A stretch of 59,461 bases of DNA from an uncultured Asticcacaulis sp. (GTDB lineage Bacteria > Pseudomonadota > Alphaproteobacteria > Caulobacterales > Caulobacteraceae): the NCBI GenBank assembly GCA_936940865.1, contig CAKZJB010000003.1, forward strand, positions 1-59,461, written 5' to 3'. The notes beneath the pieces are model-generated. The model ran no database searches. It worked only from the letters and a program-made list of their open reading frames with translations, and was not told the DNA's origin. Position 1 is the stretch's first letter. Each line of letters opens with the position of its first letter. Position numbers and translations under genes: made by a program. This document shows, piece after piece, positions 11,382 to 47,270 of the stretch.

Positions 11382-14300
11382 ATGGGTATCGACATGGACG
11401 ATTTCCGCAATGACGCGCACGCGGATCTGCGCGCACATTTGTTCAAGGCGTTTGCCGCCGCGTTGGGCAGGCCTGGCTCCGATGCCCTGACCCGGTTCGA
11501 AACCACCTTCCTCAACCAGATTCTTGAAGATTTCGACACCGAAGAGCTTCCGGACCTGTCGCCCGCCGACATGGAGGCCGTCGTCAGTGCCTTCTGGGGT
11601 TACGCCGCCACGCGATCGGGTGCCCAGACCCTGCGCCGTATCGAGCCGTTGGGCGATGGAGGCGTCTATGATCTTGTCGAGATCGTACAGCCGGATTCTC
11701 CTTTCATTGTCGAAACCGTTATGGGCGAACTCATCGACCAGGGCGTTTCGATCCGCTCGATGTTTCACCCGGTGGTGACCGTATGGCGCGACGCCGATGG
11801 CCATCGTCTGGAGGCCGAGGGGGATGCGGCCGCCGGCAGCCCCGAATCGATGATGCTGGTCTTTATCGAGCGCCTCAATCCGGAAAAGCGCGCCCAGGTC
11901 CTGGCCGGCCTGAACGAAAGCCTGAATGACCTCAAACTGGCCGTGCGCGACTTCCCGCGCATGCAGAAGCTGATGGCCCAGGAGATCGAGACGCTGGAAG
12001 CCTTGCGCGCCGCCGGCACGCTCAAGGCCGATCCGGCGGTCATCGACGAGAACCTGGCCTTCCTGAAATGGGTCGACGAAAACCACTTCGTCTTCCTGGG
12101 CGCCCGCGGTTATTCCTATCCGCGCGACGGCGAGGGCGCCTATGTCCGGGAGGAACCGCTGTATCAGATGCAGGAGGGATTCGGCGTGCTGCGCGACGCC
12201 GGTCGCGCCGTGTTGCGCCGCTCGTCGGAGCCCGCGGTCCTGTCGCAGCAGCTGATCACCCAGATCGAAAACTCCGAACCGGTCACGGTTGCCAAGGCTA
12301 ATATCAAGTCGCGCGTCCATCGCCGCGTCTATATGGATTATATCGGTATCAAACGGTACGGCGCCGATGGCAATCCGTCGGGTGAAGTGCGTTTCGTCGG
12401 CCTGTTCACGTCCGAAGCCTATGACCGTCCGGCCTTCGAAGTGCCCCTGGTCCGCCGCAAGGCCCAGCGTGTGCTCGAAGACGCCTTCAATATGGGCATT
12501 AACGGCGGCTATAACGAAAAGCGCCTGAAGAACATCGTCGAGACCTATCCCCGCGACGAACTGTTCCAGATGTCGGAAGCGGACTTGCTGCGCATCGCGC
12601 GCGGCATCCTGCATCTTTCGGACCGGCCGCGGGTCAAGATCTTCACGCGCAACGATCCGTTCGACCGCTTCATTTCGATCCTGCTCTATATTCCCCGGGA
12701 ACTCTATCAGTCGCAGATGCAGAAGCAGGCCGGTGAAATCCTTGCCAAGGCCTATCTCGGCCGGGTGTCCGCCTCCTATCCCTATATCAACGAATCCCTG
12801 CTGAGCTGCGTCCACTACATCATCGGCGTGACGCCGGGCGACCATTTCGAACCCAATATCGCCGATCTGGAAGCGGATATCGAAAATATCGTCCGATCAT
12901 GGCCGCAGAAGGTCGACGCCCTGGTGCGCGAAGAGGCGATCCTGGAAACCCTGCCGCTGCCCCACGCCGGCATCGACTGGATGGCCTGGGCCGCGGCGTT
13001 TCCCGCCGGCTACCGCGACCGCTATTCGGTGGGCGAAGCCGTGCTCGACGTCGATTACCTGGCGTCGCTGACCGAAGACGCGCCCTATGCGGTGCGCGCC
13101 TACCAGCGTCTGGAAGATGCCGACAATATCTTCTGCTTCAAGGTCTACGCCCACGTTGAACGCGCCATTCCGCTATCGAACATCCTGCCGGTGCTCGACA
13201 ATATGGGTTGCCGCACACTCGAGGAATATGGCTATCCGGTGAAGTCGGAAGCCTTGGGCGGTTATTGGGTTCAGGAATTCATTATTCGACTGCCGGACGG
13301 TCACCGCACGCCGTTCGCCGATTTCCGCGACGATTTCGAACGGGTGCTGATGGCCCTGTCGCGGCGCCAGACGGAAAACGACGGCTTCAACGCCCTGGCC
13401 CTGTCGGGTCAGTCATGGCGCGAGATCGCCCTGATCCGGGCCTTCTGCCGTTACCGCGTCCAGTCGGGCCTCGACCCCAGTCCCGACATCCAGCAGGCGG
13501 CATTGCGCGAAAATCCCGAAGTCGTAAAGGCTCTGCTCGACCTTTTCACGCTGAAGTTCGCGCCGGGCGGTGATGTCGAGTCCCGCCGTGCGGGCGCCGA
13601 GGCCGCGAAGGAAAAGATCGACGGCCTGCTGCAAAAGGTCGCCAGCCTCGACCACGACCGCGTGCTTCGCCGCCTGGCCGCCCTGGTCGGCGCCATGCAG
13701 CGCACCAACTACTTCCAGCCCGGTCCCGACGGCCAGCCCAAGGACTATATTTCGTTCAAGGTGGCGAGCCGAGAGCTGGCCGACCTGCCCGAACCCAAGC
13801 CTTACCGCGAGATTTTCGTCCTGGCGCCGCACGTCGAAGGCGTGCACCTGCGCTTCGGACCGGTGGCGCGGGGCGGCCTGCGCTGGTCGGACCGCAAGGA
13901 TGATTTCCGCACCGAGGTCCTTGGCCTGGTCAAGGCACAGCAGGTCAAGAATGCGGTCATCGTGCCCGTCGGCTCTAAAGGCGGCTTCTTCCCGAAATCC
14001 TTGCCGCGAAACGGTACGCCTGACGCCATTCGGGCCGAAGCGGTGAGGGCATACAAGACCTTCCTGTCGGGTCTGCTCGACCTCACCGACAATATCGATG
14101 CCCGGGGCGAAATCCTGCCGCCGAAGGATGTGGTGTCCTGGGACGCGCCCGATCCATATCTTGTCGTCGCAGCCGACAAGGGTACGGCGACCTTCTCCGA
14201 CATCGCCAATGGCGTGTCGGCCGACTATGGCTTCTGGCTGGGCGACGCCTTTGCCTCGGGCGGCAGCGTCGGGTACGACCACAAGGCCATGGGCATTACG

Positions 14301-36435: not shown

Positions 36436-36771
36436 TCAGATGTTGAGACCCAAAAGGATTCGGCCGTTTTCGATCATCAACGGCACGGTCGGCGTGCAGC
36501 CCTTGCCGGCGTCGGCGCCCATGGCTTCACCGGTTTCGAGCGAGATCGACCAGTTGTGCAGCGGGCAGGCGACCGCCTTGCCGTGGACGATGCCTTCGGA
36601 AAGCGGCCCGTGCTTGTGCGGGCAGCGGTCGAAGATGGCGAAGTATTCGTCCGAAACGGTGCGAAAGACCGCGACGGCGCCCAGGTCGGTTTCGACGCGG
36701 CGGGCGCTTTGCGGCTGCACCTCTTCGGCCGGGCCGACATCGGTCCAGTGGATGACGACGGAGGCATTCAT
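36436..36771 (-). CDS. nirD: Nitrite reductase (NADH) small subunit, Rieske type
   Basis: Small partner of NirB, 111 aa. It has a Rieske-like fold with full cluster ligands, CPH (Cys50, His52) and CPLH (Cys69, His72), whereas some NirD proteins have lost them. The ATG overlaps the nirB stop (ATGA), which fixes the start. A larger frame upstream is only read-through of nirB. Confidence 0.93.
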   Translation of the reverse strand: MNASVVIHWTDVGPAEEVQPQSARRVETDLGAVAVFRTVSDEYFAIFDRCPHKHGPLSEGIVHGKAVACPLHNWSISLETGEAMGADAGKGCTPTVPLMIENGRILLGLNI

Positions 36772-39248
36772 TCTGCAGGCTCCTGAAGGTGAGATTGCGA
36801 AATTCCGGCGCGCAGGTCGGCCAGCGGCGAGAACACCTTGGCGGGTTCGGACCTGGGTGCGATTTCGGCCCACGGATCGACCTGGAACACCGCCTGGCTT
36901 TCCAGGAAGCGGGCGACCAGGGCGGCGCGAACGTCCGGCTCGGCCAGGCCGTCCTTGACGAACTGCAGGCCGACACGTTCGATCCACGGCGCCGTGCGTT
37001 CCAGGTACCAGGCGTCTTCGCGGTAGAGCTGGACGAAGGCCATCGACCATTCCAGCGCTTCCTCTTCGGTCGCCACCTTGGTCAGAAGGTCGGTGACGCG
37101 GACATGGATGCCGGCATTGCCGCCGACATGCAGCTCATAGCCGCTGTCGACGCAGACGACGCCGAAGTCCTTGATTGTCGCTTCCGCGCAGTTGCGCGGG
37201 CAGCCCGATACGGCCATCTTGAACTTGTGCGGCATATAGCTGCCCCAGGTCGCCTGTTCCAGCTTGACGCCGAGACCGGTCGAATCCTGGGTGCCGAAGC
37301 GGCACCATTCCGAACCGACGCAGGTCTTCACCGTACGCAGCGCCTTGGCGTAGGCGTGGCCCGACACCATGCCGGCGGCATTGAGGTCGGCCCACACGGC
37401 CGGGAGGTCCTGCTTCTTGATGCCGAACAGGTCCAGGCGCTGGCCGCCGGTCACCTTGACCATCGGCACGTCGTACTTGTCGACGACATCGGCGATGGCG
37501 CGCAGTTCCTTGGCCGAGGTCAGCCCGCCCCACATGCGCGGCACGACCGAATAGGTGCCGTCCTTCTGGATGTTGGCGTGGTTGCGCTCATTGACGAAGC
37601 GCGAGCGCGGATCGTCCTTGTACTCGCGCGGCCAGGCGCAGAGCAGGTAGTAGTTGAGCGCCGGACGGCACGACGAACAGCCGTCGGGGGTCGACCACTT
37701 CAGCGCCTGCATGACGTCGGGCATGGTCTTGATCTCCTGCTCGACGATCGCCCTGCGCACGACGGCGTGGCCGTGCTCGGTGCACTTGCATATCGGCTTC
37801 GGGCCGGTCTGCGCCTTGAAGGCGTCGCCGAGCGTGCATTTCAGGAGGCTTTCGACGATGCCGGTGCACGACCCGCATGACGCCGACGCCTTGCAGTGGC
37901 CGCGGACCTTGTCGAGATTGTCGTTGCCCGCCTGGATCGAGGCGACCACCTGGCCCTTGGACACGCCGTTGCAGCCGCACACTTCGGTGTCGTCAGGCCA
38001 TGCCGCAACAGCGTCAGAAGGGTCCTGGCCGGCCAGGGCGTTGGTGACGGCCTGGCCGAAGATCAGGGTATCGCGGATATCGCCGATATCCTCGCCCTTC
38101 TTCATCAGGTCGAAGTACCAGCCGCCGTCGGTGGCTTCGCCGAACAGGACGCAGCCCGCCAGCTTGTTCTGCTTGATGACCAGGCGTTTGTAGACGCCGC
38201 GGCTGGGGTCGCGGAAAACGACGTCCTCGTAGCCTTCGCCGCCCGAGAACTGGCCGGCGGAATAGAGATCAACGCCCGAAACCTTGAGGCGCGTGGCCAG
38301 GCTTGAGCCATGGTATTCGCTGTCGGGGCGGGTTTCGGTCAGCACGTCGGCGACGGTGCGGCACATTTCCCAAATCGGCGCGACCAGGCCGTAGCACTGG
38401 CCGCGGTGCTGGGCGCATTCGCCGATGGCGAAGATGTCGGGGTCCGAAGTGCGCATCTGGTCGTCGACCACGATGCCGCGTTCGACCTTCAGGCCGGACG
38501 ACTTGGCGGGCTCGACGTGCGGGCGGATGCCGACGGCCATGACCAGCAGCGAAGCCGGGATGACGCGGCCGTCCTTCAGCTTCAGGCCTTCGACGTGGGT
38601 TTCGCCGAGGATGGCTTCGGACTGGGCGTTGAGCACCGAGGTCACGCCGCGTTCCAGAAGCGCCTTTTCGAGCAGGCGGCCGGCGGCTTCGTCGAGCTGG
38701 CGCTCCATCAGCACGTCGACCAGGTGGATGACGGTGGCCTTCATGCCGCGCTTGGCCAGGCCGTAGGCGGCTTCGAGGCCCAGCAAGCCACCGCCGATGA
38801 CGACGGCTTCGCCACCTTGCGCGGCGGCTTTCTGCATGGCGTCGACATCGTGCAGGTCGCGGAAGGCGACCACGCCGTGGAGGTCGGCGCCCGGCAGGGG
38901 CAGGCGGATGGGATCGGAGCCCATGGCCAGGATCAGCTTGTCGTAGGCGATGGTCTGGCCGTCGTGCAGGACGACGAACTTGCCCTTGGTGTCGATGGAC
39001 TGCACCCAGTAGCCGAAATGGGTCTTGACGCCGTTGCTATCGTACCATTCCTGGCTGTGGGTGACGATCTGTTCGAAGCTCTTTTCGCCGGCCAGGACGG
39101 GCGACAGCTGGATGCGGTCGTAGGTGGGCAGGCTTTCGGCGCCGATGATCGAGATGTCGAAACGGGTATCGTCGCGCTTGAGGATTTCTTCGACGATGCG
39201 TCCGCCCGCCATGCCGGCGCCGATGACGACGATTTTTTCCTTGGTCAT
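36768..39248 (-). CDS. nirB: Nitrite reductase (NADH) large subunit
   Basis: Siroheme enzyme that reduces nitrite to ammonium with NADH in the cytoplasm. The protein has 826 aa. An FAD-binding loop starts at VVIGAGMAGG (residues 7-16), an NADH loop is VVIGGGLLGLEAA near residue 150, and BFD-like [2Fe-2S] cysteines lie in CGCNGVSKG and CGSCTG. The siroheme/[4Fe-4S] cysteines are CVGSEWC and CPRNC near residues 650-700. It is second in the operon, 10 bp after narK. Confidence 0.96.
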   Translation of the reverse strand: MTKEKIVVIGAGMAGGRIVEEILKRDDTRFDISIIGAESLPTYDRIQLSPVLAGEKSFEQIVTHSQEWYDSNGVKTHFGYWVQSIDTKGKFVVLHDGQTIAYDKLILAMGSDPIRLPLPGADLHGVVAFRDLHDVDAMQKAAAQGGEAVVIGGGLLGLEAAYGLAKRGMKATVIHLVDVLMERQLDEAAGRLLEKALLERGVTSVLNAQSEAILGETHVEGLKLKDGRVIPASLLVMAVGIRPHVEPAKSSGLKVERGIVVDDQMRTSDPDIFAIGECAQHRGQCYGLVAPIWEMCRTVADVLTETRPDSEYHGSSLATRLKVSGVDLYSAGQFSGGEGYEDVVFRDPSRGVYKRLVIKQNKLAGCVLFGEATDGGWYFDLMKKGEDIGDIRDTLIFGQAVTNALAGQDPSDAVAAWPDDTEVCGCNGVSKGQVVASIQAGNDNLDKVRGHCKASASCGSCTGIVESLLKCTLGDAFKAQTGPKPICKCTEHGHAVVRRAIVEQEIKTMPDVMQALKWSTPDGCSSCRPALNYYLLCAWPREYKDDPRSRFVNERNHANIQKDGTYSVVPRMWGGLTSAKELRAIADVVDKYDVPMVKVTGGQRLDLFGIKKQDLPAVWADLNAAGMVSGHAYAKALRTVKTCVGSEWCRFGTQDSTGLGVKLEQATWGSYMPHKFKMAVSGCPRNCAEATIKDFGVVCVDSGYELHVGGNAGIHVRVTDLLTKVATEEEALEWSMAFVQLYREDAWYLERTAPWIERVGLQFVKDGLAEPDVRAALVARFLESQAVFQVDPWAEIAPRSEPAKVFSPLADLRAGISQSHLQEPAE

Positions 39249-39258
39249 GACTGAACCC

Positions 39259-40473
39259 TCAGATCTTGACGGAGTTGGCAGAGAGGGCGCCCCAGGTCGA
39301 ACGCCACTTTTTCTTGATGAAGGTCAGGCCCGACAGGGCGACCAGGGCCAGGACGGCGAAGCCGATCAGGCCGATCTGGTACGAACCGGTCGCCTGCTTG
39401 GAAAAGCCGAGCGTCGCGGCGAGATAAAAGCCGCCGACCCCGCCGAAGGCGCCGACCAGGCCGGTCATGATGCCGATCTCGTGGCGGAAGCGTTGCGGAA
39501 CCAGCTGGAAGACCGCACCATTGCCCATGCCGAGCGCACCCATGGCGATCATCAGGACAACCAGGGTCGCCCAGACGTTCGGCATCCTGAAGCTGAAGAT
39601 GACCAGGAAGAGCGCCGCGACCGAATACATGATCGACAGGGTGCGGATGCCGCCGATGCGGTCGGCGATCGAGCCGCCGACGGGACGGACCAGCGAGCCC
39701 GAGAAGACGCAAGCCGCCGTGAAGAAGCCGGCGATGACGGGCGTCAGGCCATATTCGGCGTTGAAATAGACGTTGAGCGACGAGGAAAGGCCGACGAAGC
39801 CGCCGAAGGTGACGCCGTAGAACAGCATGAACCACCAGGCATCGGGCTCCTTCAGGATCTTGAGATATTGCGCGGTCGTCTTGGCCGGCGGCTGCTCGGG
39901 CGCGTCCTTGGCCATGAACAGGTAGACGACGAAGACGATGATCAGCGGAATGGCGACCAGGCCGAAGACCGCCTGCCAGCCGAACATCTTGGCCAGCGTC
40001 GGGGCGAACAGAGAGGCGAAGACCGTACCCGAATTGCCGGCGCCCGCAATGCCGAGCGCAACCCCTTGATATTTCGGTGGATACCAGCGCGATGCCAGCG
40101 GCAGGGCGACGGCGAAGGATGCGCCGGCCATGCCGAGAACCGCGCCGAGGCTTAAGATCGCACCGAAGCTGTTGATGTGCAGCAGCCAGGCAAGCAGCAG
40201 GCCGGCGATGACGATGCCCTGCGCGATCAGGCCGGTCTTCTTGGGACCGATATGGTCGACCAGGAAACCATTGACGATGCGAAGCGCCGCGCCGGCCAGG
40301 ATGGGAACGGCCACCATCAGGCCCTTTTGTGCGGGATCGAGATGAAGGTCCTTGGCGATCTGGACGCTGAGGGCGCCCAGAAGTACCCAGACCATGAAGC
40401 TCATGTCGAAGTAGAGGAAGGCGGACAGAAGAGTAGGCGTGTGCCCTGCCTTAAGAAAGTCCTTACTGATCAT
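39259..40473 (-). CDS. narK: Nitrate/nitrite transporter, NarK/NasA-type MFS
   Basis: Major-facilitator carrier of 404 aa with about twelve membrane helices. The nitrate-signature-like segment GIAGAGNSGTV lies in the first half and GAFGGVGGFYLAATLGF in the second. It is the first gene of narK-nirB-nirD-nasA-cobA. The long leader (to about 40640) carries two ANTAR-type hairpins and a terminator 24 bases before the ATG. The direction of transport is inferred as uptake from the assimilatory context. Confidence 0.92.
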   Translation of the reverse strand: MISKDFLKAGHTPTLLSAFLYFDMSFMVWVLLGALSVQIAKDLHLDPAQKGLMVAVPILAGAALRIVNGFLVDHIGPKKTGLIAQGIVIAGLLLAWLLHINSFGAILSLGAVLGMAGASFAVALPLASRWYPPKYQGVALGIAGAGNSGTVFASLFAPTLAKMFGWQAVFGLVAIPLIIVFVVYLFMAKDAPEQPPAKTTAQYLKILKEPDAWWFMLFYGVTFGGFVGLSSSLNVYFNAEYGLTPVIAGFFTAACVFSGSLVRPVGGSIADRIGGIRTLSIMYSVAALFLVIFSFRMPNVWATLVVLMIAMGALGMGNGAVFQLVPQRFRHEIGIMTGLVGAFGGVGGFYLAATLGFSKQATGSYQIGLIGFAVLALVALSGLTFIKKKWRSTWGALSANSVKI

Positions 40474-40496: not shown

Positions 40497-40563
40497 AAAA
40501 AAAAACGCCTCAAGATCAAACTGGGACCGGACACGGAGGGACCGATCAGCTTGACTTGAGACG
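40497..40563 (-). terminator. Leader terminator of the narK operon
   Basis: Minus-strand arms CGTCTCAAG and CTTGAGGCG (one G-U pair) enclose about 40 nt and are followed by nine Ts. It lies 24 nt before the narK ATG, where it would block the operon unless antitermination occurs. The 5' arm sits in a 19-nt sequence, GACAATGACGTCTCAAGTC, identical in the porin-nrt leader. Confidence 0.85.
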
Positions 40564-40576
40564 TCATTGTCTTGGC

Positions 40577-40608
40577 GTCTGTCAGCGCCATCCTTGGCAA
40601 AAACAGAC
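40577..40608 (-). promoter_or_regulatory. ANTAR-target hairpin 2, narK leader
   Basis: Minus-strand stem GTCTGTTTTTGCC / GGCGCTGACAGAC with hexaloop AAGGAT (A at position 1, G at position 4). A two-base internal mismatch lies at pairs 5-6 from the loop, at the same place as in the porin-nrt leader. Confidence 0.75.
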
Positions 40609-40618
40609 TAGGGAGGAA

Positions 40619-40636
40619 ACGGTCGCCGTTGACCGC
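40619..40636 (-). promoter_or_regulatory. ANTAR-target hairpin 1, narK leader
   Basis: Minus-strand stem GCGGTC / GACCGT with hexaloop AACGGC (A1, G4). It lies 35 nt loop-to-loop from hairpin 2. Such tandem hexaloop hairpins are the known binding motif of ANTAR antiterminators. Confidence 0.75.
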
Positions 40637-40857: not shown

Positions 40858-41658
<801 letters not shown>

Positions 41659-41691: not shown

Positions 41692-42591
41692 TTAGTCTGC
41701 GGCGGTTCCGCGGGAGACGATGTTTCCAAGTCCGGCAACCAGGCGGTCGAGCGCGAAGCCCACCAGTCCGACCCAGGCCAGGGCCACGATGATGTCGGAC
41801 ATGCGCGACGAATTGTACTGGTCCCAGATAAAGAAGCCGATGCCGACGCCGCCCAGCAGCATTTCCGAGGCGACGATGGCCAGCCAGCTCATGCCGATGC
41901 CGATCCGCAGGCCGGTGAAGATGTGCGGCGTCGCCGCCGGCAGCATGATCTTGAAGAAGAATTCGATGGGGTGCAGACGCAGGACGCGGGCGACGTTGAT
42001 GTAGTCCTGCGGGATGTTGCGGACGCCGACGGCCGTGTTGATGACGATCGGCCAGATCGAGGTGATGAAGATGACGAACAGGGCCGACGGCTGGGCTTCG
42101 CGCAGCATGGCCAGCGAGATCGGCAGCCAGGCCAGGGGCGGCACGGTGCGCAGGACCTGGAAGATCGGGTCGAAGCCCTTGCGCGCCCAGCCGACCGTGC
42201 CGATGAAGGCGCCGAGCAGCACGCCGCAGACGGCCGCCAGGCTGAAGCCGATGCCGACGCGCGACAGCGAGGTCAGCACGTGCCAGAACAGGCCCTTGTC
42301 GACACCGCCGCGGTCGAAGAAGGGGTTGAGGATCAGCTCCTGCGAGTCCGCCCAGATCTGCGATGGGCCCGGCAGGCCGCCTGGCATGACGCGCGACACG
42401 GCCTCCCAGATACCCAGGGCGATGCCGATGGTCAGAACCGGCAGGATAACGGTCGAGATGCGGTCGCCGGCCTTGCGCAGCTTCGCGGCTTCGATCTGCT
42501 TCTTCTGCGCGGCGTTCAACAGGACGGATCGGTCGATCGACGGCGCGGTTTGGATAGGAGCCTCGGGCTTTTTCATAAAATCAAACGGCAT
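41692..42591 (-). CDS. nrtB: Nitrate ABC transporter, permease
   Basis: Inner-membrane permease of 299 aa, with an N-terminal cytosolic stretch of about 45 residues and then about six helices. The permease loop that contacts the ATPase is recognisable near ...GVRNIPQDYINVARVLR... and the segment RTVPPLAWLPISLAML is typical of nitrate/taurine-type permeases. It lies 57 bp after nrtA and 33 bp before nrtC. Confidence 0.92.
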   Translation of the reverse strand: MPFDFMKKPEAPIQTAPSIDRSVLLNAAQKKQIEAAKLRKAGDRISTVILPVLTIGIALGIWEAVSRVMPGGLPGPSQIWADSQELILNPFFDRGGVDKGLFWHVLTSLSRVGIGFSLAAVCGVLLGAFIGTVGWARKGFDPIFQVLRTVPPLAWLPISLAMLREAQPSALFVIFITSIWPIVINTAVGVRNIPQDYINVARVLRLHPIEFFFKIMLPAATPHIFTGLRIGIGMSWLAIVASEMLLGGVGIGFFIWDQYNSSRMSDIIVALAWVGLVGFALDRLVAGLGNIVSRGTAAD

Positions 42592-42648: not shown

Positions 42649-43908
42649 TTAGCTCAGCTTCTTGATCGCCAGGCTGTTGAGGTAGGCGTCGGGGTTGGAC
42701 GGGTCGAAGACCTTGCCGTCGAAGAACTTTTCCGGACCGCGCGAATCCGAGGCCGGAGCGGCGATGCCGTATTGCTTGGCGACATCGCGCCACAGGTCCG
42801 AGCGGTTGACCTTGTTGACCAGGGCCATGGTGTTGAGACCCGCGTCGAAATTGCCCCAGCGCTTGTTTTCGGTGATGAACCAGGCGTCGTGCGATTTGAA
42901 GGGGAAGGCGGCATTGTCGGCCCAGAACTTCATGATATGCGGGCTGCCGGTAACCTTGCGGCCGTCGCCGTAGTCGATCGTGCCCTTAAGGCGCGGGACG
43001 ATGTCGTTGATCGGCACGTTGATGTACTGGCGGCCGGCAGTGATGGCGCACATGGCGTCGCGGTTCTTGTCGCACCATTGTTGGGCTTCCATGACGGCGG
43101 CGATCAGCGCCTTGGCGGCATTCGGATGCTTGTCGACCCAGTCGGCGCGCATGCCCAGCGCCTTTTCCGGGTGATTCATCCATATTTCCGATGTCGTCGT
43201 GGCGGTGTAGCCGATGTGCTGGTCGACCAGCTGGCCGTTCCATGGCTCGCCGACGCAGAAGGCGTCCTGTGTGCCGGCTTTCATGTTGGCGACCATCTGC
43301 GGCGGCGGGATGACGATGGTCGAGCAATCGGTGTCGGGGTTGATGCCGCCGGCCGCCAGCCAGTAGCGCAGCCACAGATCGTGCGTACCGCCACGGAAGG
43401 TCATCGCGACCTTGGCGATATTGCCGGCCGCCTTCATCTGCATGAACTTGGCCTTCATCGGCGCGCTGTTGAGGCCGACCTTGATGTCCTTGAGGTCGTT
43501 GCCGACGCTGATGCCCTGGCCGTTCACATTGAGACGCGCCAGGATATACATCGGCGTGGCCTTCGCCGCCTGGCCGGTGGTGATGAGGTAAGGCATCGGC
43601 GACAGGATGTGCGCCCCGTCGATTCCGCCGCCCTGGCTGCCCAGCACGATATTGTCGCGTGTGGCCGCCCACGAAGCCTGCTTGAGCACGTCGACATCCG
43701 GCATGCCGTACTTGGCGAACAGGCCGCGTTCCTTGGCGATGATCAGTGGCGAAGAGTCGGTCAGCGCGATGAAGCCCAGCTTGGCGGCCGAGGTTTCCGG
43801 TCCCTTGCCGGCGGCAAACGCCCCCGACGGAAACAAGGCGCGGGCGGCCGCTACGGTCGCGGCGGCGCCGATCAGGGCCTGGCGGCGGTTGAGATCGAAT
43901 TTGGTCAT
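42649..43908 (-). CDS. nrtA: Nitrate ABC transporter, periplasmic binding protein (Tat-exported)
   Basis: Binds nitrate in the periplasm and delivers it to NrtB/NrtC. The protein has 419 aa. The N-terminus has a twin-arginine signal (LNRRQALIG followed by a hydrophobic stretch ending AFA). The family core is FIALTDSSPLIIAKERGLFAKYG and GIDGAHILSPMPYLIT. It shares its fold and several motifs with the cytoplasmic sensor NasS downstream, which lacks the signal. It starts 17 bp after the porin gene. Confidence 0.94.
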   Translation of the reverse strand: MTKFDLNRRQALIGAAATVAAARALFPSGAFAAGKGPETSAAKLGFIALTDSSPLIIAKERGLFAKYGMPDVDVLKQASWAATRDNIVLGSQGGGIDGAHILSPMPYLITTGQAAKATPMYILARLNVNGQGISVGNDLKDIKVGLNSAPMKAKFMQMKAAGNIAKVAMTFRGGTHDLWLRYWLAAGGINPDTDCSTIVIPPPQMVANMKAGTQDAFCVGEPWNGQLVDQHIGYTATTTSEIWMNHPEKALGMRADWVDKHPNAAKALIAAVMEAQQWCDKNRDAMCAITAGRQYINVPINDIVPRLKGTIDYGDGRKVTGSPHIMKFWADNAAFPFKSHDAWFITENKRWGNFDAGLNTMALVNKVNRSDLWRDVAKQYGIAAPASDSRGPEKFFDGKVFDPSNPDAYLNSLAIKKLS

Positions 43909-43925
43909 GATACGAATTCCAGGGC

Positions 43926-45206
43926 TTAGAGCTTGTAGTTCAGCGCGATCCACGTCTTGGTCCGCGAGGCGGGCATGGTCGGGCTGGCGCGTTCGAAGTC
44001 GGCGTATTTCAGCATCAGGCTGAGGTTCTTGGTCAGGCCGGCAACCAGCACGGCGTCCCATTCCTTGCCGATCTTCTGGTCGAGGCGATCGGTCTTGAAG
44101 TCGTGATAAACGACGGTCAGGGTCGGATTCATGAACCACGGCGCCCACGGCTTGGTGTGGCCGGCAACGACGAAGCTGGCGTTCAGGTCGTCGATACCGT
44201 TGACGAAGGTCTTGTTGCCGCCGGTGGCGGAGAAGACGTCGTCATAGCCTTGGAAAGCGTGAGAGGTGCCCAGCGGCGCGACGAAGCCGACCGTGCCGTT
44301 GCCCTGGAGCGCTTCGTAATTGAGCTTCAGCGTGTAGATGTCGTATGTCGCCGAGCCTTCGATCATCGATTCATGCAGGTCGAAGACGGCGGGGTTCAGA
44401 CCGTTTGGTTTTTCACCGGCATATTGCAGGACGTAGCCCAGCTTGAACGCCGACACCCAGTCGCTGCCGTAGGCCCGCAGGCCCTTGATCGCCACGGAAG
44501 AGGCCGCGGCATTGGTCTGGTCGGCGGCGACCGGCGCCGTGGCGGCCGTCGAGAAGCGCAGCGCGTAGTCGAAGGCCGTGAATTTCAGGGCTTCGTTGAC
44601 GCTGTAGCTGGCGTTCAGCACGTAGGAGTTCGAATACCAGTCCTTGGCGTCGCCGACGACGCGGTTGACGCGCCCGATATAGGCGCCGGTCAGCTTGACG
44701 CGCCACAGGGTCGTATCGAAGCGGACGGCGTCATAGGTCTGTTCGTCCTGGCGCCAGCCGACATTGCCGATGAAGCGCGCGTCGTCGAGGATGATGCGCT
44801 GACGGCCCAGCGTCAGCGTATTGGTCGCGTCGGGCGTCCACGTGATCTGGGCGCGGTTGATCTCGGTGACCTTGGGGTCGAGGACCGTCGGATAGGCGGT
44901 ATTGCCGTTGAGTGTCGAATTATATTTATCGGACAGGATGTTGACGCTGTCGATTTCGACCAGGGCCTTGAAATTATGGAAATCGCCGGTTTGCAGGCCG
45001 AAGCGGTTGCGCCAGGTCAGGGCTTCGGCCGTATTGGCGACGCCCTGTTGGTCGACCTGCTCCCAGCGAAGGTTGGAGTCCAGGATCGGCTTCGAGGCCG
45101 AGATCGCGTCGGCGATCGTATCTTCGGCGCGGGCGCTCGCCGCCAGGACCATCACACCGGCGGCGCAACTCAGCGCCAGCCTTGTCTTTGTTGTTTTTCT
45201 AACCAC
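43926..45206 (-). CDS. Outer-membrane porin of the alginate-export family, probable nitrate porin
   Basis: Predicted beta-barrel of 426 aa. The GTG start at 45206 is chosen because AGGGG precedes it and it gives a clean signal peptide ending ASARA before EDTIADA. Earlier starts would read through the leader terminator. Repeated alternating strands with Tyr/Trp and the C-terminal strand WIALNYKL fit an outer-membrane protein. As first gene of the nrt operon it probably lets nitrate across the outer membrane; that substrate is inferred from position. Confidence 0.82.
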   Translation of the reverse strand: MVRKTTKTRLALSCAAGVMVLAASARAEDTIADAISASKPILDSNLRWEQVDQQGVANTAEALTWRNRFGLQTGDFHNFKALVEIDSVNILSDKYNSTLNGNTAYPTVLDPKVTEINRAQITWTPDATNTLTLGRQRIILDDARFIGNVGWRQDEQTYDAVRFDTTLWRVKLTGAYIGRVNRVVGDAKDWYSNSYVLNASYSVNEALKFTAFDYALRFSTAATAPVAADQTNAAASSVAIKGLRAYGSDWVSAFKLGYVLQYAGEKPNGLNPAVFDLHESMIEGSATYDIYTLKLNYEALQGNGTVGFVAPLGTSHAFQGYDDVFSATGGNKTFVNGIDDLNASFVVAGHTKPWAPWFMNPTLTVVYHDFKTDRLDQKIGKEWDAVLVAGLTKNLSLMLKYADFERASPTMPASRTKTWIALNYKL

Positions 45207-45224
45207 CGCTCTTATCCCCTGAGC

Positions 45225-45286
45225 AAAAAAAAACGCCCCAAGCGCGGCGCGGACCCTTTTCCAGAAAGGTTCGCCGACTTGAGACG
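45225..45286 (-). terminator. Leader terminator of the porin-nrtABC operon
   Basis: Minus-strand arms CGTCTCAAG and CTTGGGGCG (two G-U pairs) followed by nine Ts, ending 19 nt before the GTG start. Its 5' arm lies in the same 19-nt sequence as in the narK leader (45276-45294). Confidence 0.85.
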
Positions 45287-45301
45287 TCATTGTCCTGCAG
45301 A

Positions 45302-45325
45302 CCGTGCGCCGCCATTGGCGTCCGG
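45302..45325 (-). promoter_or_regulatory. ANTAR-target hairpin 2, porin-nrt leader
   Basis: Minus-strand stem CCGGACGCC / GGCGCACGG with hexaloop AATGGC (A1, G4) and a two-base mismatch at pairs 5-6 from the loop. Confidence 0.75.
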
Positions 45326-45333
45326 CCCGTATG

Positions 45334-45359
45334 ATGTGCCGCCGTCCTTGACCGCACAT
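45334..45359 (-). promoter_or_regulatory. ANTAR-target hairpin 1, porin-nrt leader
   Basis: Ten-pair minus-strand stem ATGTGCGGTC / GGCGGCACAT with one G-G mismatch, one G-U pair and hexaloop AAGGAC (A1, G4). It shares TGCGGTCAA with hairpin 1 of the narK leader. Confidence 0.75.
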
Positions 45360-45386
45360 GCGAAGGTTTGTTCAGGCTGGGGGTTC

Positions 45387-45392
45387 CGTCAA
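45387..45392 (-). promoter_or_regulatory. Candidate -35 element, porin-nrt operon
   Basis: TTGACG on the minus strand, 28 bp before hairpin 1, matching the element at 40668-40673. Confidence 0.5.
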
Positions 45393-45537: not shown

Positions 45538-46686
45538 TTATGCGCACTTGAACACACCGCCGTCGAACAGGACGTTCGGCGGCATGGCGATGTCATGCGG
45601 TTGCGCCGGCAGCGACCAGGGCTGGGCATGGCCGCCTTCTTCCTTTTCAAGCGCAATCGGGCAGTTGAGGCCCAGGCTTGAGGCGGCGATGCGCCACAGG
45701 TCCGGCCGGTATATATGACGCGCCAGCTGGTCGAAATCGTGTTCGGCGGTCAGCCAGCCCCACTTGACCATCTGCCCCAGGAACCATTTGGCGTGGCTGA
45801 TCCACGGATAGGTGGCGGTTTCCGGATCGAGCACCAGGCCGCTGCCGTGTTCGGACAGGGCCAGGGCGATGGCTTCCGCCGGTGCGCCGACATAGGCGCG
45901 CCGGGCCAGAATCCGCACCAGGTCCTGATGGTTGCCCGGGCGGCTGGCCCATTGCCCGGCGCGCAGCAGCGCGCGTACCAGCGCTATGACGGCGTCGGGG
46001 TTTTCCTCGGCCCAGGCGGAGCGGACGCCCAGGACCTTTTCCGGCTTGAGGCTCCAGTAGTCGGGGTCGGAAAAGAGAATCTCGCCACGGCCTTTCAGTT
46101 GCGCCGTCTGCGGCCAGGGCGAGCCCGAGCAGAATCCGTCGACCACGCCGTCCTTGATCATGTCGGCCATGCGCGACGGCGGCACGACGACCCACTGAAT
46201 CTGGCGTTCGGGATCAAGTCCGGCCGAAGCCACCCAATGGCGCAGGACAAAGTGGTGCGGCGAATAGGTAAAGGGAATGGCGAAGACCAGCCGGCCTTCG
46301 CCGGATTTTCGCCGGCGATCGACTTCGCGCGCCAGCAGGCGGGCGCTTCCCGTCAACGACCTGGCGGGATGGCCGTTTTCTTCCAGACGGGCCTTCAGCG
46401 CGGCCGACACCAGCACGGAATTGCCGTTGGCGCCCAAGGCAATCGGCGCGATGATCCGGCCCATGGACGGACCTTGGCCGAGCGCGGCGGCGAACGGCAT
46501 CGGCGCCAGGATATGGGCGGCATCGACCAGGCCGTAAGCCAGCTTGTCGCGTATGGTCGACCAGTTGGCCTCGCGGCTGAGCGTTACGTTCAAACCTTCG
46601 CTGTCGTAAAAGCCCAGCGCCTCGGCTACCAGCAGCAGGGCGGCGTCGTTGAGCGGGCTATAGGCGATCTTCACGTCCATGGTCAT
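45538..46686 (-). CDS. nasS: NasS, cytoplasmic nitrate/nitrite sensor
   Basis: NrtA-like binding protein of 382 aa with no signal peptide (MTMDVKIAYSPLNDAALLLV), so it stays in the cytoplasm. Motifs shared with NrtA include DAAHILAPMPFAAALGQG and GFCSGSPWPQTAQ. In known NasS/NasT systems NasS holds NasT inactive until nitrate or nitrite binds. The ATG overlaps the nasT stop (ATGA), so the two are cotranscribed as nasT-nasS. Confidence 0.92.
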   Translation of the reverse strand: MTMDVKIAYSPLNDAALLLVAEALGFYDSEGLNVTLSREANWSTIRDKLAYGLVDAAHILAPMPFAAALGQGPSMGRIIAPIALGANGNSVLVSAALKARLEENGHPARSLTGSARLLAREVDRRRKSGEGRLVFAIPFTYSPHHFVLRHWVASAGLDPERQIQWVVVPPSRMADMIKDGVVDGFCSGSPWPQTAQLKGRGEILFSDPDYWSLKPEKVLGVRSAWAEENPDAVIALVRALLRAGQWASRPGNHQDLVRILARRAYVGAPAEAIALALSEHGSGLVLDPETATYPWISHAKWFLGQMVKWGWLTAEHDFDQLARHIYRPDLWRIAASSLGLNCPIALEKEEGGHAQPWSLPAQPHDIAMPPNVLFDGGVFKCA

Positions 46687-47270
46687 TCGCCTCCGGGGGA
46701 AAGCAGGTCGCTGACGGCCAGGATATCGGCGGCCACGGCGTGGATGGGCCGGCCGGTATCCATGGCGTGCTTGCGCAGGAGCTTGTAGGCTTCGTCTTCA
46801 CTCAAGCCGCGCGACTTCATCAGGATGCCCTTGGCCCGGTCGATCGTCTTGCGGGCGGCCAAATCGGCGCGTGCCTTGTTGAGGTCGTTGCGCAACGACT
46901 GCATCATGGCGAAGCGCTGGGCGGCAACCGTCAATACCGACGACATGCGCTTCGGGTTGAAGCCGTCGACGATATAGGCTGCGACGCCGGCCTCGACCGC
47001 CTTGGCCGTCGAATTGGCGTCGGAGCGGTCGACGAACATCACGACCGGGCGCGGCACCGACTCGTTGGCGACCTGCAGGGCTTCCAGCATGTCGCGGTCG
47101 GGGCTTTCGCAGGCGATGATCACCATGTCCGGATCGATGTCGCGCAGCATGCGCAATTCGAACCGGGGCTGGATGGTGATCGACGGATCCTGCCCGGCAT
47201 GATCGGCGCGGATGCCCTCGGCCACCGAAGCGGCGCGGGCGTCATCGGGGTCGATGATCAGGACATTCAT
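46683..47270 (-). CDS. nasT: NasT, ANTAR-domain transcription antiterminator
   Basis: RNA-binding antiterminator of 195 aa. The N-terminal receiver-like domain runs to about residue 120. A coiled linker (LRNDLNKARADLAARKTIDR) leads to the ANTAR domain, AKGILMKSRGLSEDEAYKLLRK, ending near ADILAVSD. At the usual phosphoacceptor position of the receiver (MVIIACESPDRD) there is Ala, not Asp, consistent with control by NasS binding rather than phosphorylation. Predicted targets are the hairpins before narK, the porin-nrt operon and nasT itself. Confidence 0.93.
   Translation of the reverse strand: MNVLIIDPDDARAASVAEGIRADHAGQDPSITIQPRFELRMLRDIDPDMVIIACESPDRDMLEALQVANESVPRPVVMFVDRSDANSTAKAVEAGVAAYIVDGFNPKRMSSVLTVAAQRFAMMQSLRNDLNKARADLAARKTIDRAKGILMKSRGLSEDEAYKLLRKHAMDTGRPIHAVAADILAVSDLLSPGGE

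Follow-up and report, generated by a model that had tools for sequence, protein, structure and literature searches.

The porin-nrtABC operon and the narK-nirB genes of an uncultured Asticcacaulis sp. are each preceded by a leader of the same layout, which raises the question of which regulator acts on them and how it would do so. We studied this in a stretch of 59,461 nucleotides (contig CAKZJB010000003.1), hereafter called the window. Both leaders are predicted to fold into three successive hairpins (P1, P2, and P3) whose six-base loops carry A at position 1 and G at position 4 (A1/G4), followed by an intrinsic terminator (Table 1). The A1/G4 hexaloops, the overlap between P3 and the terminator, and the presence of nasT and nasS upstream point together to antitermination of the NasS-NasT type. 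Judging from sequence and modelled folding, we hold with high confidence that the region before the porin acts as a NasT-controlled antitermination leader of the nitrate-uptake operon.

Table 1. Features of the two leaders and of the neighbouring genes in the window.
Feature	Position	Strand	Description
-35 candidate	45387..45392	-	TTGAC(G) box; putative promoter role
P1 hairpin	45334..45359	-	hexaloop AAGGAC (A1, G4); predicted fold
P2 hairpin	45298..45329	-	7 bp, 2x2 internal loop, 4 bp, hexaloop AATGGC (A1, G4); predicted fold
P3 mini-hairpin	45282..45295	-	GGAC[AAUGAC]GUCU, mostly within the 19-mer, overlaps the terminator 5' arm; predicted pairing
Intrinsic terminator	45225..45288	-	stem 45288-45232, U run from 45233; predicted fold
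19-mer	45276..45294	-	GACAATGACGTCTCAAGTC, exact copy in the narK leader; sequence match
Second leader (narK-nirB)	40497..40636	-	same layout as the porin leader; predicted fold
narK-leader P1	within 40497..40636	-	loop AACGGC; predicted fold
narK-leader P2	40608-40577	-	loop AAGGAT; predicted fold
narK-leader P3	40572-40559	-	loop AATGAC; predicted fold
narK-leader terminator and U run	stem 40565-40504	-	predicted fold
nasT	46683..47270	-	ANTAR RNA-binding protein; PF03861, 78 bits
nasS	45538..46686	-	NrtA-like nitrate sensor (NMT1_2); PF13379, 217 bits
porin	43926..45206	-	putative GTG start after the terminator, AGGGGAT 5' of the GTG
nrtA	42649..43917	-	nitrate-binding protein, putative start; PF13379, 329 bits
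nrtB	41692..42591	-	ABC permease; PF00528
nrtC	40858..41658	-	ABC ATPase; PF00005
narK	39259..40473	-	narK-type MFS transporter; PF07690
nirB	36768..39248	-	assimilatory nitrite reductase

The minimum-energy fold of the porin leader has -64.0 kcal/mol, against a mean of -50.3 for 200 dinucleotide shuffles (z -3.4), and that of the narK leader has -56.3 against -39.9 (z -4.7, 200 dinucleotide shuffles); none of the 200 shuffles reached the native energy in either case. Hairpins and terminator appear in both folds, in agreement with the shared layout proposed by the first-pass annotation, which had also correctly placed the loops AAGGAC (P1) and AATGGC (P2), both of them on the minus strand, and seen an internal mismatch at the same position of the second hairpin (7 bp followed by a 2x2 internal loop in both leaders). 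The P2 hexaloop of the narK leader, AAGGAT, appears in the predicted fold as a tetraloop with a closing A-U pair. The same annotation had described an identical 19-nt sequence at the terminator. GACAATGACGTCTCAAGTC has indeed two exact matches in the window (45276-45294 and 40553-40571), where 0.03 matches with up to three mismatches are expected by chance, but it is more than terminator sequence, since its bases 1-12, GAC[AAUGAC]GUC, form the third hairpin with an A1/G4 hexaloop of its own. The 19-mer serves both P3 and a terminator arm and is thus under a double constraint. This third hexaloop, as well as the nasT and nasS genes beside the leader, had gone unmentioned. The equal spacing claimed for TTGACG holds relative to the first hairpin, the box beginning 43 nt ahead of the P1 loop in each case, but its distance to the 19-mer differs by 4 nt. 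Across the genus, TTGAC lies 41-44 nt 5' of the P1 loop in all 37 leaders described below. The two leaders are plausibly paralogous, having arisen by duplication. A third 19-mer-like match in the same genome (L003, three mismatches) is not a leader.

Further upstream, the two leaders share sequence blocks at nearly equal distance (GAAACCATTTC, TTGTGACA, and TTTGTGCA). GAAACCATTTC lies 175-177 nt 5' of the P1 loop (45526-45516 and 40805-40795, minus strand), and more shared block material is found at about 45460-45428 (minus strand). These shared blocks are possibly an activator site; the upstream palindrome pattern is present in only 4 of the 37 genus leaders. The TTGTGACA block suggested a sigma-54 promoter in front of the window leaders, but inspection by eye did not support it. 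The longest ORF called mechanically for the porin (43926-45359) begins at an ATG inside P1, and the true start is likely the GTG at 45206. The porin scores 22.5 bits with Alginate_exp, under the cut-off of 25.2.

The candidate regulator is encoded next to these RNAs. The genes nasS and nasT lie directly upstream of the porin leader, nasT adjoining nasS beside the nitrate-assimilation genes, which is the arrangement of NasS-NasT systems. This NasT is the genome's only ANTAR match (the assembly has 245 contigs and is 99.98% complete), and the earlier suggestion that one RNA-binding protein controls both nitrate uptake and reduction is very probably right, given this single ANTAR protein and the place of its gene. 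ANTAR is the sole Pfam family in NasT (E ≤ 0.001), unlike the NIT-ANTAR architecture of NasR/nasF. NasT aligns to EutV (6wsh) with an E value of 4.6e-15 and keeps the EAYxxLRxxxM core. In EutV, Tyr164, Arg168, and Met172 contact the hexaloop (PMC8934654), and the EAYxxLRxxxM residues of NasT would be their counterparts (numbering matched by us). NasS in turn matches the nitrate-binding NrtA (2g29) with an E value of 6e-46.

The position of P3 is what would make the leader a switch. The hairpin lies on the 5' base of the intrinsic terminator, and the overlap is predicted to let either P3 or the terminator form, but not both. The predicted pairing probability of P3 is 0.97 in the porin leader and about 0.81 in the narK leader when the RNA ends after P3; it decreases to 0.43 and 0.29, respectively, with 17 nt more RNA, when the terminator is incomplete, and to 0 in both leaders once the terminator is complete. 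Forcing P3 has a predicted cost of 7.1 kcal/mol (porin) and 6.8 kcal/mol (narK), and with a penalty of about 7 kcal/mol P3 would require the help of a protein to win. The linker between P2 and P3 has 2 nt in the porin leader and 4 nt in the narK leader when the whole P2 stem is counted, which is within the 2-25 nt given for ANTAR RNAs (PMC8164766) and below the range of 5-12 nt known from eut leaders, for which a 3-nt linker is described as harmful (PMC3369931). Short linkers of 1-9 nt are also found in 42 leader candidates at other NasT loci. The nirB-type leaders (L080, L082, L086, L089-L092, and L096) have another terminator, UCCCGCA...UGCGGGA, which overlaps the 3' arm of P3 only; their P3 is still GGAC[AAAGAY]GUCC.

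The leader is conserved across the genus. Of 61 genomes searched for the 19-mer with up to three mismatches, 27 had matches, and 14 of the 32 loci inspected are leaders, including the two of the window. Each of the 14 has three hairpins, with one exception in loop sequence (in L005 the P2 loop begins with G). We built a covariance model (R1) from the alignment of these 14 leaders and searched it over 199 genomes of the family, which resulted in 43 places in 28 genomes (E ≤ 0.01). Inspection classed 34 of them as leaders, every one inside Asticcacaulis, and 9 as something else: six places outside the genus (G085, G092, G163, G175, G187, and G193) lack a U run and a nas-protein match nearby, and three weak matches inside narK (L100, L101, and L103) were dropped. 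Three more leaders in L143-L145 brought the total to 37, from 22 of the 25 genomes of the genus, which are related, so that these counts are not independent. Because R1 was trained on three hairpins, its later matches lean toward the three-hairpin layout; the 14 training leaders, found by similarity to the 19-mer alone, also have three hairpins.

By comparison with the window proteins, the first gene after the 34 leaders is a porin in 20 cases, nirB in 9, and narK in 5, and the porin is followed by nrtA in 17 of the 20 and by narK in the other 3. The first-pass annotation had held that its reading would fall if the leader pairing were not conserved in relatives with the same operons. It passed this test: nrtA (E ≤ 1e-100) is present in 17 of the 25 genomes, and the leader stands before porin-nrtA in all 17. 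The leader is also found in 21/21 genus genomes encoding NasT (21 of the 25) and in one of the four without a NasT match (G023, a draft of 370 contigs). In AC460 and A. biprosthecium, the narK leader is followed after about 1.6 kb by a third leader of this type (L143, 18528-18609; L144, 18833-18914), and nirB starts soon after this third one in A. biprosthecium (L070).

Pairing has been kept while the stems diverged, as had been claimed for the two window leaders, and the relatives have pairs changed on both sides. Among 36 distinct leaders, standard pairs make up 97.2% of 432 pair cells, and 7 of 12 pairs show changes on both sides. The covariation score of this set is 0.444, against 0.214 when shuffled and at most 0.089 with slid partners, in an alignment fitted to the model, which favours covariation. 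The number of further pair types (16) is not special, being reached by 74 of 500 shuffles. P1 and P2 have three pairs each with changes on both sides. The outer pair of P3 is A-U in 14 leaders, G-C in 13, and G-U in 8, and its inner three pairs are invariant and thus uninformative on covariation; in the alignment of the 14 leaders alone, no P3 pair changed on both sides.

In our initial tabulation of the loops, G4 was a search condition, A or G was required at position 1 of P1, and A was preferred in P2, so that only the counts compared with shuffles test A1/G4. With a stem of at least three pairs, an A1/G4 hexaloop is found at P1 in 36, at P2 in 36, and at P3 in 35 of the 37 leaders (shuffle means 3.3, 2.8, and 1.8; the shuffles of the P1 segment reach at most 7). 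With at least four pairs, the counts are 35, 28, and 34 (shuffle means 1.3, 0.9, and 0.6). For the interval between P1 and P3, the strict minimum-energy fold has an A1/G4 hexaloop in 31/37 leaders (shuffle mean 0.2, maximum 2), and any middle A1/G4 hexaloop with a stem of at least three pairs is present in 36/37 (mean 2.5, maximum 8). Opening tetraloops that have a closing A-U pair, a step that leans toward A1, gives a middle hexaloop in all 37 leaders and A1/G4 there in 36 (mean 0.7, maximum 3). P1 and P2 thus keep A1/G4 while the other loop positions (2, 3, 5, and 6) drift among the 37 leaders, and the data favour recognition of both by NasT. Where the published ANTAR antiterminators consulted carry two small hairpins with A1/G4 hexaloops, each window leader carries three.

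To look outside the genus, we searched the surroundings of NasT genes at 98 loci (L125-L222, including three from Asticcacaulis) and obtained candidates at 76. The 82 candidates were cleaned to 70 by excluding those with no plausible leader by eye (L138 minus, L194 plus, L206 minus, and one of L160) and eight of L143-L145, which belong to the same genus. A close hexaloop pair is found in 45 of the 70 (42 with the short linker mentioned above, 3 with an extra upstream loop), which rules out a third hexaloop everywhere. A long gap between P1 and P3 is found in 25, with an A1/G4 middle loop in 8 of them (shuffle mean 0.5, maximum 3). An extra upstream A1/G4 hexaloop occurs in 12 of 52 close-pair candidates versus 1.9 expected, in a set that includes doubtful candidates and a count that overlaps the 8/25. 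Leaders thus usually have two loops; in Asticcacaulis three are standard, and outside it they are the minority. For the nasA leader of Paracoccus denitrificans, two hairpins (HI and HII) are in print, and growth on nitrate was lost in the absence of HI (PMC5424462). By eye, this leader (L205, ~11867-11930), which the automated scan did not report, has the loops AACGGC, AATGAT, and GACGAT, the third beginning with G.

A search of Rfam at gathering cut-offs gave no match in the window leader, and the narK RNA family (RF03032) has no match in the same genome at E ≤ 0.001. Against the porin leader, RF03032 scores 19.6 bits (45281-45340, minus strand), below its gathering cut-off of 43.2, and aligns its one modelled hairpin with P2 and the following GACAAAGACGUC with P3. 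In its consensus, [AACGGC] corresponds to P2 and GAC[AAAGAC]GUC to P3; the family models a single hairpin and contains nothing equivalent to P1, whereas the porin leader has three hairpins. Matches to RF03032 (E ≤ 0.001) occur in 15 of 299 genomes of the phylum, 11 of them over the cut-off. An ANTAR protein is encoded in all 15, which are not independent (11 come from one family), with at least one match within 2 kb in each; for comparison, 106 genomes encode one in an equally large draw of 299 that includes the 15. Many of the matches lie before narK. We inspected 19 of the 23 matches (loci L253-L272 except L266): 16 have A1/G4 hexaloops in both hairpins, and L255, L259, and L270 have one in a single hairpin. 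By eye, most of those inspected have a U run after the second hairpin. RF03032 looks like a NasT two-hexaloop antiterminator whose second hairpin is unmodelled, which would offer a likely identity for this Rfam family. The start of its consensus resembles a sigma-54 promoter. We found no occurrence of the terms narK RNA, RF03032, or narK motif in the literature searched.

That all three hexaloops are NasT sites, making the leader a three-site ANTAR switch, we regard as an even call. Alternatively, two hexaloops may bind NasT as in the canonical pair, either P1 and P3 with P2 as a spacer or P2 and P3 with P1 unused, a serious possibility that we rate somewhat short of even. This would fit the long-gap candidates outside the genus, which nearly always have a middle hairpin and carry A1/G4 there in just 8 of 25, the other middle loops of the Phenylobacterium leaders (L152, L153, and L157), and the weak RF03032 match, which sets the modelled hairpin on P2 and the next loop on P3. 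Yet even these 8 exceed what shuffles give, and A1/G4 is present in both P1 and P2 in 36 of the 37 Asticcacaulis leaders, with the other four positions varying, which favours three recognised loops.

Two further readings bear on whether NasT and P3 are involved at all. NasT binding to the hairpins is a prediction, and they could in principle be those of an ordinary attenuator or the target of another RNA-binding protein; we consider this very unlikely, as A1/G4 hexaloops are the mark of ANTAR targets, the sole ANTAR protein is encoded beside the leader, and no Rfam family matches at its cut-off. The identity of the 19-mer in both leaders of this genome could also be the trace of a recent event of gene conversion or duplication, the 19-mer having no role beyond the terminator. 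We give this the least credence, because relatives keep GAC-R-xx-G-xx-GUC despite changes at loop positions 2-3, the leaders within a single genome are not always alike (e.g., G017), and the nirB-type leaders swap the terminator and retain a P3 such as GGAC[AAAGAU]GUCC.

Under NasT control, the leader would work as follows. Transcription would start just before P1, as the TTGAC box suggests, and P1, P2, and afterwards P3 would fold in this order. Without nitrate, NasT would be held by NasS, the terminator would take the 3' half of P3, and the polymerase would stop before the porin. In the presence of nitrate or nitrite, NasT would be released from NasS and bind the A1/G4 hexaloops; recruited at P1/P2, it would stabilise P3, which would block the 5' base of the terminator and let porin-nrtABC be transcribed. 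P3 would then be the antitermination hairpin, and P1 and P2 either two recruitment sites or one such site with the other a spacer or unused. In a three-site switch, NasT may be caught at P1, passed to P2, and then to P3 as they are transcribed, or two or three dimers may be bound simultaneously. The narK-nirB leader would work likewise, so that uptake and reduction would rise together.

Antitermination by NasS-NasT is a known mechanism, and the third hexaloop is the unusual part. Work on P. denitrificans shows that NasS releases NasT in response to nitrate and that the nasA leader is bound by NasT (PMC3795266). As in the NasS-NasT systems of Paracoccus denitrificans, Azotobacter, Pseudomonas, and Bradyrhizobium, the nasT and nasS genes here neighbour nitrate-assimilation operons, the leader combines hairpins with a terminator, and NasT is of the receiver-like/ANTAR type. 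Unlike those systems, there are two separate leaders per cluster (three in some relatives), one of them before porin-nrtABC, and each has three A1/G4 hexaloops. The presence of such a leader need not mean simple activation. In Bradyrhizobium, NasT hairpins are predicted for narK and bjgb, but expression of both genes goes up in a nasT mutant under denitrifying conditions (PMC6759348). The dual-hexaloop antiterminators of ANTAR proteins (EutV/eut, NasR/nasF, and AmiR/amiE) share with the window leaders the A1/G4 six-base loops, which EutV requires, and a last hairpin on the 5' base of the terminator (PMC3369931); they differ from them in lacking the third tandem hexaloop. The roughly 400 known ANTAR RNAs, from firmicutes and proteobacteria, are described as dual stem loops (PMC8164766). 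The model for EutV has a recruitment hairpin capture a dimer, which is then handed over to the antitermination hairpin (PMC8934654). EutX/Rli55 has one extra hexaloop beside the dual motif (PMC8934654), as here, but it is a protein-sequestering small RNA, whereas the window element is a terminator leader. We found no description of a three-hexaloop terminator leader in the literature searched, which argues only weakly for novelty because supplements (the leader drawings of PMC6759348 among them) and many subscription papers lay outside the search.

A three-site switch, if true, would widen the time available for blocking the terminator and sharpen the response to nitrate. For ANTAR dimers, simultaneous and successive binding of the hairpins are both under discussion (PMC8934654), and such a switch would make the two modes distinguishable in a natural leader, where loop-by-loop removal of the three natural loops can address how one dimer uses several of them. 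For Asticcacaulis, the analysis indicates that nitrate uptake through an outer-membrane porin and an ABC transporter is tied, together with nitrite reduction, to one sensor in the genus.
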